Source: Bacillota bacterium
Lineage (GTDB): Bacteria > Bacillota > UBA994 > UBA5500
Direction: 5' to 3'
Assembly: GCA_029781045.1 (NCBI GenBank)
Contig: JAKOXL010000035.1
Location: forward strand, 1 to 47,628
DNA length: 47,628 nt
The position numbers were made by a program, and so were the translations under genes. Shown here piece by piece: positions 2,840 to 47,628 of this stretch. The notes beneath the pieces were generated by a model. That model saw only the letters and a list, made by a program, of their open reading frames with translations. It was not told the DNA's origin and did not search any database. Positions within the stretch are counted from its first letter, which is position 1; each line of letters starts with the position of its first letter.

Positions 2840-3926
2840 TGCTACTTTCTCCCTTCTTGCCACGCAGTAGGGATACCATCCACAATAGCCAGGGTGTAAC
2901 CCAGAAGAAGCCAATGGCTATTAGACTATAGGTACTTCGCACCCGAGTCTCGAAGTCATAATCCGTTTGATAGCTGGTAGTGGCTATAGCCAAAATCAGG
3001 ACAATGAAATAGACGATGCTTGCATTAAGACAGGGAAAGGCACCCTGCAAGCAGGTAATAGCAATATATAACATGACGACAATGGTGTTGATGATCTGAA
3101 AGGTCCAAGCGATCAAGAAGACCACATCGGCCCGTTCAAAAATCTCCAAAGCAAAACGATTCAGATAGGACTGGAGCGGCCAGGTGGTCATAAGGATAAG
3201 CTCTATGCCCAGGTTACCTATGATGAGAAGAGTGGTCATCAAGTAGAAGAAGGTTACCAGCCCCAGGGCAGCAACCCCAATCCCGAATTTGCGCCTGGTA
3301 CGCACATAGGGGTAGACGATAAGAAAAACATCAAATCCGGCAAAAGCATATAGGCCAGGGAGTATGCCCTTAGCTATGCCTGCTACCCCCTTTTCGAAGA
3401 GCGGTCGCACAAAGTCCAGATCGATGGGAATGACCGGTATCACTAGCAGAATGATCAGGGTTAGTGTTAAATAGTTGATCATCTCTACCACCCGGGCGGT
3501 AACAACCACGCCTCGCCTGGCCACATTCCAACAGACAAAGACTAAAGGAACCATAAAGACCAGCTGAGGTGTTTGCCCTAGTGCCCAAGCAGAAACCACG
3601 GGGAAATGGGCACGAGGAACACTCACGCCAATCAGCAGTGTAAAAAGAGCATAGACGAGCAGATAGCCTTTACCCAGAAAGGTACCTAGTATCTCACCAA
3701 TGTACTCGTTGAGCGTCTGTCTAGGGAAACGGCTGGCCAACAGGTGTAACCCCAGCAGCCCCACCACCATTAGGATGCCAGCTAGGAGCATGGACAATAG
3801 ACCTCCCGCCCCTGCCGGTTCCGCCACATCCCGTGCCAGAGTATAAACCCCCGTTCCAACGATAGTGTTGACTATGAGGCAGAAGAGCTGCCACCCGGTG
3901 ACTACCGGACGATGCCTGTTTTGCAC
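2817..3926 (-). CDS. Spore germination receptor B subunit (GerAB-type permease)
   Basis: A 369-residue integral membrane protein with about ten hydrophobic segments, of the GerAB/endospore germination permease family within the APC superfamily. The start MQNRHRPVVTGWQLFCLIVN and the following IVGTGVYTLARD fit the family's first helix, where the germinant-binding half of the receptor begins. GerAB subunits recognise the amino acid or sugar germinant; specificity cannot be read here. The initiation codon is GTG at 3926, only 13 bases after the A-subunit stop. The ribosome site is a run of eight G (3932-3939) followed by AG, so its spacing could change with homopolymer slippage. It is the middle gene of an A-B-C operon. 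Confidence 0.93.
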   Translation of the reverse strand: MQNRHRPVVTGWQLFCLIVNTIVGTGVYTLARDVAEPAGAGGLLSMLLAGILMVVGLLGLHLLASRFPRQTLNEYIGEILGTFLGKGYLLVYALFTLLIGVSVPRAHFPVVSAWALGQTPQLVFMVPLVFVCWNVARRGVVVTARVVEMINYLTLTLIILLVIPVIPIDLDFVRPLFEKGVAGIAKGILPGLYAFAGFDVFLIVYPYVRTRRKFGIGVAALGLVTFFYLMTTLLIIGNLGIELILMTTWPLQSYLNRFALEIFERADVVFLIAWTFQIINTIVVMLYIAITCLQGAFPCLNASIVYFIVLILAIATTSYQTDYDFETRVRSTYSLIAIGFFWVTPWLLWMVSLLRGKKGESSSEEKSAA

Positions 3927-44673: not shown

Positions 44674-45579
44674 GTGGCTAAGCTGATAAGGGGAAAAAAC
44701 CACTTGATGGTTAAGAGTACAAGGATAGGTGTCATGTTGCTCAGCATTTTGACCCTGTCAATTATGTTTCCTGTGATGGCTCGTGCAGACGTGGGGCCTA
44801 AACCATCCATAGTCATCGATTTCACCGGACTTGAAGGTAAAACGTATTACGCCACGTTGCTCTCTAGCAAAAAATCTACCGGTCCTCACTCGGCCCTTAA
44901 CGAGGATGGGACGTATGCGCGATATGCAGAGGGCGACGAAGACTACGAGATCTTCCTAAGGTTCGTGGAATATCAGGACACCGACGGGTACTATTTTCTG
45001 CAGTTCTTTCAAGACTGCAGTGAGTCTCACCAATTTAGGTGGACTTACTACCCGCCGAAGATGTTCAAGATACTCCTGTACTTTCCGGAGCTAGACCACT
45101 TTATTGTGAGCCACGAAGTCTATGAGCGATATGCCTTTGACAGTTATTTCACCGCGCATGTTTCCGACATGGGCCTTTCTGTGGAAAAGTCCTATGACTA
45201 TACCGGTGAAGCCCTTTCTCTGGCTATCCGCATAGTCCTTACTATACTAACTGAGCTGGCGATCGCCCTGCTGTTTGGCTTTAAGGAAAGAAAGCAGTTT
45301 CGCTTTATTGCCCTCGTTAACGTCATAACACAGGTGGGGCTGAACGTAGCATTGAACATCATTAACTATCATTCAGGCGCACTAGCGTTCCTTTTCTTCT
45401 ACATTCTACTGGAAATCATAGTCGTCATTGTAGAGGCGATCATTTATATGCTGCACCTAAGGAAAGACGGTTTGCAGCCTATTCCCCTCTGGAAACCAGG
45501 CCTGTACGCCCTGGTGGCCAACGCAGCTTCCTTTGCTCTGGGGCTCAAACTAGCATTCTGGCTTCCGGGCATCTTTTGA
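44674..45579 (+). CDS. Unknown protein with signal peptide and C-terminal membrane helices
   Basis: A 301-residue protein of no named family that I can assign. A signal peptide (VKSTRIGVMLLSILTLSIMF, cleavage near MARADVGPKP) is followed by an extracytoplasmic domain of about 150 residues starting DVGPKPSIVIDFTGLEGKTY and rich in acidic and aromatic residues. Four to five helices fill residues about 180-301. It could be a sensor or a transport accessory. GTG at 44674 has GGGGGAG upstream; ATG at 44710 is also reasonable. A terminator and the GntR promoter follow, so it is a separate unit. Confidence 0.65.
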   Translation: MAKLIRGKNHLMVKSTRIGVMLLSILTLSIMFPVMARADVGPKPSIVIDFTGLEGKTYYATLLSSKKSTGPHSALNEDGTYARYAEGDEDYEIFLRFVEYQDTDGYYFLQFFQDCSESHQFRWTYYPPKMFKILLYFPELDHFIVSHEVYERYAFDSYFTAHVSDMGLSVEKSYDYTGEALSLAIRIVLTILTELAIALLFGFKERKQFRFIALVNVITQVGLNVALNIINYHSGALAFLFFYILLEIIVVIVEAIIYMLHLRKDGLQPIPLWKPGLYALVANAASFALGLKLAFWLPGIF

Positions 45580-45605
45580 TAGCGTTCGCAGCTATATTTA
45601 CAGAA

Positions 45606-45646
45606 CAAGGCGGTTCCTGCATAAGACAGGCACCGCCTTGTTTTTT
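45606..45646 (+). terminator. Terminator after the unknown membrane protein gene
   Basis: CAAGGCGGT (45606-45614) pairs with ACCGCCTTG (45632-45640), with CCTG/CAGG inside, followed by TTTTTT. Confidence 0.92.
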
Positions 45647-45684
45647 CTATGCTCCCCACTCTAAGATAATTTTCGTGTGTGGTA

Positions 45685-45713
45685 TTGACTGTCAACCGTA
45701 TTATACATATAAT
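45685..45713 (+). promoter_or_regulatory. Consensus SigA promoter of the GntR-ABC cassette
   Basis: TTGACT (45685-45690), a 17-bp spacer and a perfect TATAAT (45708-45713) form the strongest promoter in the window. The first GntR-type palindrome overlaps the -10 box. Confidence 0.92.
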
Positions 45714-45717
45714 ACAG
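45696..45717. promoter_or_regulatory. GntR (YtrA-type) operator 1
   Basis: CCGTATTA and TAATACAG arms around TACATA form a near-palindrome that covers the spacer end and the -10 box. It shares its half-site with operator 2, located 29 bp downstream centre to centre. Confidence 0.8.
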
Positions 45718-45724
45718 TCACAAA

Positions 45725-45746
45725 CCGTATTATACGTGTAATACGG
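45725..45746. promoter_or_regulatory. GntR (YtrA-type) operator 2
   Basis: CCGTATTA and TAATACGG are perfect 8-bp arms around TACGTG. It lies just after the transcription start, between promoter and regulator gene, so it would block elongation when bound. Confidence 0.82.
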
Positions 45747-45775
45747 TTTAACTTTGAGTGCAGGAGGGTTGCCAT

Positions 45776-46147
45776 TTGCTTTCCTTTGAACAATTTGATC
45801 TGCAGGATGGCAGCCCCATCTATCTGCAAATCATCCGACACGTTAAGCAGAGCATCGTCGCCGGAAGTGCTGAGAATGGAGACGAAATGCCCTCCCGGCG
45901 AGTCCTCTCTGCCCTATTGGGAGTCAATCCCAACACTGTGCAGAAGGCGTACCGGATGCTGGAAGAAGAGGGCATCATTGAATCCCGCTCTGGTGCGAAG
46001 AGCTATCTGGTTCTAGATGCAGAGAAAGTGCAACGGATTCGCGAGGAATTGCTGGAAAACGACGTGCAGGCGATCGTTACCGCCCTGAAGAGAATGGGGC
46101 TCTCCAAAAGAGAGGCAATTTCTCTGGTTGACAAACTATGGGAATAA
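45776..46147 (+). CDS. GntR-family regulator, YtrA subfamily
   Basis: A 123-residue repressor of the short GntR (YtrA) group. A winged helix occupies 10-78 (GSPIYLQIIRHVKQSIVAG, MPSRRVLSALLGVNPNTVQK as the helix-turn-helix, then YRMLEEEGIIESRSG). A short C-terminal helix tail follows and there is no ligand domain. Such regulators usually control an ABC operon of their own, as here. The start is TTG at 45776 with AGGAGGG 7 bases upstream; the frame could extend to 45758 but has no site. Two palindromes at its promoter indicate autoregulation. Confidence 0.92.
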   Translation: MLSFEQFDLQDGSPIYLQIIRHVKQSIVAGSAENGDEMPSRRVLSALLGVNPNTVQKAYRMLEEEGIIESRSGAKSYLVLDAEKVQRIREELLENDVQAIVTALKRMGLSKREAISLVDKLWE

Positions 46148-46165
46148 CGAACGGGAGGTGTGAGC

Positions 46166-46906
46166 ATGAGACAACATTTATCGGTGCTGATGCTGGCGGC
46201 AAGAAACACTATCTACAGGGTAATTGGTCTCTTTGCAGTGACCGCGGTGGTCGAAACCTTGTTGTTCTATTCCACCCTGAGAAAAATCCTAGGGGAAGAT
46301 CCCCCCGGCCTGGAACACGTGATGAGCGAAAGCCGCATTGCCCTAGTATGCGCCGTCAGCTTTCTACTGCTGTGTACATTGCTCAGCTTCTCAGGCTGCG
46401 ACACGGGTGGCAGCAGGCTGCGGTATACCCTGCAAAGGCTATCTGTGGGTGAGAGAACCATAGTTTTCTGGTGGGCCGTCTACAATATGGCTTGTTTCTT
46501 CCTCTTCTGGGCGCTCCATGTAGTCATTGTGCTGTTACTGAGCCAGCTCTATGTGACGCAAATAGATGCCACATATGTCAGCAATCAGACCATCTTGTTA
46601 GCCTTCTACCGTAACAACTTTATGCATAGTCTGTTGCCGCTGGCGGAGACCAGCCGCTACTTGCGGAACGCCAGCTTCGTTCTCGGCCTTGGTACATGCA
46701 CCGCCTCTTTCTCCTATCAGCAGAGGCGCGGGAAAAAGGGGATCGCTGTAGTGGTTTTAGCCGCCTTGGTTGTTGTGTACTTCGCGCGGGCCATGGGCAG
46801 TTTTGGCAGTGATCTGATGCTTTCCCTCATAGCCCTTGGCGTGACTGCTGGTACAACGATAAGTATCTGGAAGGGGGAGGGCTATGAGGTTGATGCCGAA
46901 GTATGA
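46166..46906 (+). CDS. ABC transporter membrane protein, first subunit
   Basis: A 246-residue membrane protein with about six hydrophobic segments (residues near 17-35, 55-77, 98-122, 160-175 and 190-230). No named family is clear, but size and place in a GntR-membrane-membrane-ATPase operon point to an ABC-type permease of the YtrC/D or ABC-2 kind. The ATG has GGGAGGT 6 bases upstream. Its stop overlaps the next gene start by 23 bases, so the two are translationally coupled. Confidence 0.72.
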   Translation: MRQHLSVLMLAARNTIYRVIGLFAVTAVVETLLFYSTLRKILGEDPPGLEHVMSESRIALVCAVSFLLLCTLLSFSGCDTGGSRLRYTLQRLSVGERTIVFWWAVYNMACFFLFWALHVVIVLLLSQLYVTQIDATYVSNQTILLAFYRNNFMHSLLPLAETSRYLRNASFVLGLGTCTASFSYQQRRGKKGIAVVVLAALVVVYFARAMGSFGSDLMLSLIALGVTAGTTISIWKGEGYEVDAEV

Positions 46907-47408
46907 CTTGCATCGCCACGTGCCACCGGGGCTGGATCCCGCCCAGGAACTGGGCTGGTTTGCTGGTGGCCTTGGCATCAGTTTACTCTATAGCCTCGGA
47001 TTCCTGATTCGTTATGACAACGAGTATCAGTCACTCTTTGTCTGGGATGGATTCATGAAAACACTGGACACCAGCGCTGTAATGCCAGACTTTGTGCAGA
47101 TACTGGGCGGCAGTCTGAACGGCTTTCTGATCCTTGCTCTCTGTATGGTAGCTGTTGCTGTCTATCATTACAGCTACTACTATCAGGGCAGCAAAAGCAT
47201 TTACCTCATGAGGAGGCTGCCTAGCCGCTGGGAACTGCCCCGTCGTTGCCTTACCTTGCCACTTTTAGGCATCATCACATGCCTGTGTATTGCCCTGCTC
47301 CTGCTGCTTATCTATTACGCAGTTTACATGAAGTTTACCCCGCAGGCTTGCCTAGCGCCGCAGCAGTGGCAGAAACTCTGGAGTGCTTTCATGGGGGTAG
47401 GAAGATGA
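46884..47408 (+). CDS. ABC transporter membrane protein, second subunit
   Basis: A 174-residue membrane protein with about four hydrophobic segments (residues near 25-45, 75-95, 120-150). I cannot assign a family from sequence alone; the position implies a partner permease. SIYLMRRLPSRWELPRRCL near 105 is a basic cytosolic loop between helices, possibly the ATPase contact. The ATG has AAGGGGGAGG upstream. The stop overlaps the next ATG by 4 bases (ATGA), indicating co-translation with the ATPase. Confidence 0.68.
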   Translation: MRLMPKYDLHRHVPPGLDPAQELGWFAGGLGISLLYSLGFLIRYDNEYQSLFVWDGFMKTLDTSAVMPDFVQILGGSLNGFLILALCMVAVAVYHYSYYYQGSKSIYLMRRLPSRWELPRRCLTLPLLGIITCLCIALLLLLIYYAVYMKFTPQACLAPQQWQKLWSAFMGVGR

Positions 47409-47628
47409 TCGAGATAAGAAATGTAAGCAAGTATTACGGCGGTAAGCGCGCTCTCGACAATATCAGTTTAACTCTGCCTCAGGGGCAGATCATCGGTCTG
47501 TTCGGTGAGAACGGCGCAGGCAAAACCACACTGATGAAGTGCATCCTCGGCCTTCTACGCTATACAGGTGAGATTACCCTCGATGGAGCACCCATCTCAC
47601 GCAAGAATATAGCTAGGCTTTCCTTTGC
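47405..47628 (+). CDS. ABC transporter ATP-binding protein, 3' end outside window
   Basis: The first 74 residues of an ABC ATPase. MIEIRNVSKYYGGKRALDNI opens in the standard way and Walker A is GLFGENGAGKTTLMK near residue 37. The later motifs are beyond the window. The ENGAGK type with short, DrrA/YtrB/BcrA-like start fits an ABC-2-type exporter for lipids, antibiotics or peptides. It completes the GntR-membrane-membrane-ATPase cassette. Confidence 0.9.
   Translation, partial: MIEIRNVSKYYGGKRALDNISLTLPQGQIIGLFGENGAGKTTLMKCILGLLRYTGEITLDGAPISRKNIARLSF

Follow-up and report, generated by a model that had tools for sequence, protein, structure and literature searches.

The 47,628-nt stretch of DNA analysed here (the window) makes up the entire contig C3 of a 2.0-Mb, 57-contig Bacillota genome (assembly GCA_029781045.1), and its right end holds the front part of an ATP-binding cassette (ABC) transporter operon: a promoter, two operators, a gene for a small GntR-type repressor (gntR), genes for two membrane proteins (MP1 and MP2), and the start of an ATPase gene. 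The question that this locus raises is what such a cassette does, and whether its parts belong to a known transporter. An initial inspection of the DNA (the sequence-only reading) had classed it as a YtrA-type GntR-ABC cassette, an assignment that holds given the PF00392 GntR protein, its short C-terminal part, and the linked ATPase. Because the contig ends inside the ATPase gene, that reading could not see a fifth gene, which in relatives encodes a membrane-anchored extracytoplasmic protein of ∼460 aa (ECP). The kind of cassette is known; what is new are the unnamed membrane subunits, the ECP partner, and a conserved double operator.

Conservation of the cassette and its double operator

As judged by sequence comparison, the gene set, its order, the promoter, and the double operator are conserved in about 80 species. 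MP1 occurs in two congeners, in another genus of the family, and in one remote genome of the phylum (57–74% and 27% identity), but it is rare beyond these: of 299 genomes sampled from the phylum, an MP2 profile matched in only 3. When contigs from one genome per species were scanned, MP1 by itself returned nothing; the MP2 profile succeeded, with 110 loci confirmed. The best 80 of these were kept for locus comparisons, and gene order was examined in 82 loci. The carriers, which are gut and anaerobic Clostridia-type bacteria, many of them from animal guts, include Fusibacter, Butyricicoccus, Agathobaculum, Emergencia, Anaeromassilibacillus, Lachnospiraceae, Oscillospiraceae, and Candidatus Fermentithermobacillaceae. 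The order gntR-MP1-MP2-ATPase-ECP is seen exactly in 60 of the 82 loci, and most of the others are cut by contig ends, are broken, or have duplicated or re-ordered MP1 and ECP genes. In the window the genes are tightly coupled, as had been noted, with the MP2 start overlapping the MP1 end and the ATPase start overlapping the MP2 stop. Given that 80 or more genomes of Bacillota and Clostridia-type bacteria keep the same order, promoter, and double operator, the gene unit is under selection.

The promoter had been called near-perfect, and the −35 box TTGACT (45685–45690) and the −10 box TATAAT (45708–45713), 17 nt apart, indeed match the consensus at 11 of 12 positions. The two palindromes lie where they were first placed, over the −10 box (operator 1) and just downstream (operator 2), with cores 29 bp apart from start to start; no other site in the whole genome fits the operator pattern without mismatch. 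The pair, AACYGTATTA-N6-TAATACRGTT occurring twice, is present in 68 of the 75 homologous promoters that have enough upstream sequence, and in 9 of 1500 shuffled sequences, so that its recurrence exceeds chance. TTGAC is found in all 68 promoters with the pair, a 17-nt spacer in 60, and an exact TATAAT inside operator 1 in 56. The distance between operators in relatives ranges from 26 to 32 bp with a mode of 29 bp (27 loci), and the lack of a helical-turn step in this range argues against rigid contact between two bound dimers. In the ten carrier genomes scanned, sites with 0–2 mismatches are those of the cassette pair and the others are isolated matches with 3 mismatches, which points to a regulon that is probably the cassette operon alone.

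A survey of 229 YtrA-subfamily factors reported mostly single sites and very few double ones, and described the motif as a long palindrome in which GT/AC lies well away from the centre (PMC4494728). AACYGTA-N12-TACRGTT agrees with that motif, and the habit of one operator per operon, which is common in the subfamily but not strict, is departed from in the 68 promoters above. Because the surveyed YtrA regulons have mostly single sites, the conserved double operator stands out in this promoter comparison as the clearest regulatory peculiarity of the cassette and as unusual for a YtrA-type regulon. A hairpin can also form in the leader at operator 2 (folding energy of the leader −21.6 kcal/mol, z −3.3). 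RNA-based control by this hairpin is less likely, however, since the same palindrome occurs at operator 1, which lies upstream of the predicted transcript start. In the congener G002 (locus L017, ∼3084–3138, reverse complement, upstream of gntR), the two operators together make up a single 55-nt inverted repeat whose perfect arms are 24 bp long.

Departures from the common order involve MP1 and ECP. In locus L045, MP2-ATPase precedes a series of MP1-ECP pairs; in L059 the order is MP2-ATPase-MP1-ECP; and L076, L094, L107, and L110 have two or three ECP genes in tandem. These duplications and re-orderings suggest that MP1 and ECP may be a co-varying, exchangeable pair, and the tandem ECP genes and MP1-ECP pairs themselves have the look of exchangeable substrate-side modules. 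Apart from broken or neighbouring genes, each locus has one cassette ATPase. Beyond these five, no gene recurs consistently beside the cassette; the most frequent other family in the flanks, a generic ABC group, occurs at 9 loci. Stops or frameshifts occur in L083 (ECP), L095 (MP1 and ATPase), and L041 (MP1), possibly from decay or sequencing errors. The L038 record is labelled Bacteroidota; its control region is identical to that of L039, so the label is probably a binning or naming matter. MP2 had no match in plasmids or phages, and a defence role was set aside as PADLOC gave generic ATPase and helix-turn-helix matches only. We found no earlier description of the five-gene unit in Clostridia in the open-licence literature.

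Table 1. Features at the right end of the window
Feature	Position	Strand	Remarks
Intrinsic terminator	45602..45646	+	13-bp plus 4-bp stem, U-run; inverted repeat 45604-45619/45627-45642
Sigma-A type promoter, TTGACT-17-TATAAT	45685..45713	+	
Operator 1, AACCGTATTATACATATAATACAGTC	45694..45719	.	palindromic core GTATTATACATATAATAC 45698-45715, over -10 box
Operator 2, AAACCGTATTATACGTGTAATACGGTTT	45722..45749	.	11-bp perfect arms; predicted 5' leader
gntR, YtrA-subfamily repressor, 123 aa	45776..46147	+	TTG start
MP1, polytopic membrane subunit, 246 aa	46166..46906	+	no named family; putative coupling helix, YTLxRLS motif
MP2, small membrane subunit, 174 aa	46884..47408	+	∼3 transmembrane segments (hydropathy); motif GSKSIYLMRRLPxRWELxRRC
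ABC ATPase, 5' part, 74 codons	47405..47628	+	open at contig end; whole in relatives

The cassette proteins

The repressor carries an N-terminal winged helix-turn-helix domain (PF00392, 4.6e-14) at residues 22–80 of a 129-aa reading that begins at GTG 45758. The better start is TTG 45776, because AGGAGG stands 8–9 bp ahead of it and the relatives (L017/L033) have ATG at this place. With this start, ∼49 residues follow the domain, in line with the ∼50-residue C-terminal part of the YtrA subfamily; the total length is similar to that of YtrASa (6sbs), which is among the closest solved structures together with Lmo0741 (4r1h) and Lin1836. The ATPase is whole in a relative (L033:4790-5521), where it matches PF00005 (ABC_tran) at 4.7e-21. 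Its nearest models there are PmtA (1.3e-29), a gallidermin-type (lantibiotic-protection) ATPase (4.2e-29), and DrrA (3.9e-27), which places it with ATPases of the ABC-2 exporter kind, and its closest chains in the PDB include ABCA1, ABCA3, and Rv1218c.

Three of the five proteins, MP1, MP2, and ECP, belong to no named family of the libraries searched. For the two membrane subunits this had been proposed at the outset, and Pfam and NCBIfam bear it out: MP1 has no Pfam family across 71 members, bar one stray weak match, and MP2 has none for the window protein and four stray single-member Pfam matches among its relatives. Neither matched a solved structure by sequence. This second result carries little weight, as ordinary ABC-2 permeases of the same genome, run as controls, also failed to match the PDB; the missing Pfam match says more, because two of the three control permeases do have a Pfam name. 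No Pfam or NCBIfam model links MP1 and MP2 to YtrC and YtrD, of which they may be very distant relatives. They may plausibly define a new exporter.

The AlphaFold model of MP1 (predicted local distance difference test, pLDDT, 92.9) has a short helix with the sequence YTLQRLS between its second and third main helices, resembling a coupling helix. In the model, the order of helices and this putative coupling helix fit an ABC permease, and there is no large inserted extracellular domain. Foldseek returned weak matches to MlaE, NosY, LptF/G, and FtsX, and the best PDB matches are ABC permeases; the likeness of the model to ABC-2-like permeases is weak. In the case of MP2, the motif given in Table 1 is very conserved. 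An hhalign comparison of MP1 with MP2 revealed a common GS-x(3,4)-Y-x-L-x-R-L motif at 55.7% probability, which is only suggestive of a relationship between the two over this motif.

ECP is modelled (L033, pLDDT 92.3) as a single N-terminal helix followed by beta structure. Across 66 members no Pfam family was matched, nor was any solved structure matched by sequence, and in fold searches beta-propellers predominate among its best matches, at a probability near 1. The propeller-like fold is tentative because the template-modelling (TM) scores are only 0.2–0.3. A lipoprotein was considered and rejected, with a lipobox-like sequence in 1 of 67 proteins. It is possible, and we put it forward tentatively, that the cassette represents a new ABC architecture, in which a half-permease of ∼3 transmembrane segments (MP2) and a fuller, asymmetric MP1 would each present one and the same coupling motif, Y-x-L-x-R-L, to a single ATPase and would work with an anchored propeller-like protein that is exchangeable and at times multiplied. 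This would be a separate Clostridia transporter family with its own double-operator switch.

Known systems and the proposed function

The ytrGABCDEF operon of Bacillus subtilis resembles the cassette in that its ABC transporter, made up of a pair of membrane subunits plus an extracytoplasmic protein, is autoregulated by a small YtrA-subfamily repressor. The YtrA operator, AGTGTA-13bp-TACACT (PMC8060467), is close to the cassette operator AACYGTA-12bp-TACRGTT, although the half-sites are 13 bp apart there and 12 bp here. The cassette differs in its order MP1-MP2-ATPase-ECP, in its double operator, and in having one ATPase where YtrBCDEF has two (YtrB and YtrE); and whereas YtrF is FtsX-like, ECP joins an N-terminal helix to beta structure that is propeller-like by model. 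ClnRAB of Clostridioides difficile also pairs a YtrA-type regulator with an ABC transporter in a member of the Clostridia and is induced by LL-37 (PMC6117091), but its order is regulator-ATPase-permease, with one permease and no ECP reported. PmtR-PmtABCD of Staphylococcus likewise has a YtrA-type regulator, and PmtA is the best NCBIfam match of the cassette ATPase. The scores of the cassette proteins nevertheless fall well short of the PmtA and PmtR cut-offs, and Pmt has two ATPase-permease pairs and is not known to include an ECP. NosDFY, finally, is likewise built from a single type of permease, a single type of ATPase, and an extracytoplasmic repeat protein (NosD, a beta-helix), and NosY is among the MP1 fold matches; however, GntR control is not known there, and no sequence relation was detected.

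Three operons of the same genome, on contigs C19, C28, and C48, also place a small GntR beside an ABC ATPase and a membrane subunit, but in the order GntR-ATPase-permease. The C28 permease falls in PF12679 and the C48 permease in PF13346, and the 247-aa C19 permease has no Pfam match. In hhalign comparisons, no relationship was found between MP1 and the C48 or C19 permease, or between MP2 and the C19 permease. The C19 operon (L126, G000:C19:9500-16000, gntR 1630–2001) has a palindrome, GTATTAAGCGCTTAATAC, at C19:11081–11098 just upstream of gntR. In the C48 operon (L128, G000:C48, 4431–5290, minus strand), the ATPase appears split into two adjacent open reading frames, through either a break in the gene or a misassembly.

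The ABC operons of YtrA-type proteins are repressed by these proteins themselves, and such control usually accompanies a response to toxic compounds; for PmtR the precedent comes from the NCBIfam model name. YtrA responds to cell-wall antibiotics (PMC12772383, PMC8060467), and ClnR binds LL-37 directly (PMC6117091). We consider it reasonably probable that gntR-MP1-MP2-ATPase-ECP is an autoregulated transporter operon whose likeliest job is to remove or detoxify membrane- or cell-wall-active compounds, as in the transporters controlled by YtrA, ClnR, and PmtR. The most likely function, we infer, is that of an ABC-2-type exporter responding to envelope stress or to antimicrobial peptides. In such a scheme, two GntR dimers would shut off the operon, one on operator 1 blocking the −10 box and one on operator 2 blocking the transcript start, presumably with cooperative binding, and both would be released by a signal that is probably a compound or peptide acting on the envelope. 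The ATPase would then drive a complex of MP1 and MP2, each presenting its Y-x-L-x-R-L motif, while ECP, anchored by its N-terminal helix, would hold or sense the substrate outside. Several observations weigh against this proposal. The structural matches of MP1, of which MlaE, NosY, and LptF/G are the best, have E values of 0.05–2 (all >0.04) at TM scores of ∼0.4, and the ECP propeller matches, for all their high probability, have TM scores of only 0.2–0.3. Moreover, the complete five-gene cassette is seen in relatives only, as the end of the ATPase gene and ECP were looked for in the rest of this assembly and not found. If the proposal is right, the cassette would give gut anaerobes a common means, as yet without a name, of coping with such compounds, and its defined operators offer a direct reporter for finding the inducer.

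The nearly constant presence of ECP could be read differently. In a mechanotransmission machine of the FtsEX or LolCDE kind, or a BceAB-like signalling transporter, ATP hydrolysis would move ECP to control envelope enzymes or to sense damage. This would suit an anchored ECP that is nearly always present, a very small MP2, and the weak similarity of MP1 to FtsX, LptF/G, and NosY, and overexpression of the ytr operon is known to thicken the B. subtilis cell wall (PMC8060467). We regard this reading as rather unlikely, since the ATPase is most like those of ABC-2 exporters (PmtA, DrrA) and MP1 lacks a large inserted extracellular domain. More doubtful still is an ABC-2 system for a specific endogenous molecule, such as a lipid, a peptide, or, as with NosDFY, a maturation factor, in which ECP would be an outside chaperone and antibiotics would play no part. 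The NosY match of MP1 fits such a role, and the tandem ECP genes would suggest several clients; however, the flanks show no consistently recurring client gene, and the type of repressor points instead to toxic compounds.

The neighbouring 44674 gene

The open reading frame at 44674–45579 encodes a protein of no named family that combines a leader with membrane segments and an extracytoplasmic stretch. The sequence-only reading had it ending directly before the cassette and linked to it, which would make this membrane protein a functional partner of the transporter. Its position is as described, with the stop at 45579, and it is co-oriented with the cassette, but a strong terminator (−26.6 kcal/mol, z −6.5) separates the two and speaks against a shared transcription unit. 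Synteny in relatives also goes against a link. In the congener G001 the homologue lies 2.1 kb from gntR, with two opposite-strand genes between, which by eye we take to encode MmcQ/YjbR-like and serpin-like proteins. In the congener G002 it is on a different contig, where the 400 bp that follow it contain no gntR, and in G043 the homologue (47% identity) sits among unrelated genes. The gene is absent from the remaining cassette loci examined. A partnership is thus highly improbable, the gene was rejected as a cassette part on the strength of the terminator and the synteny, and the two are predicted to be separate transcription units. Homologues of the 44674 protein occur in G001, G002, and G043, and its C-terminal membrane region is common to G040, G007, and G025.

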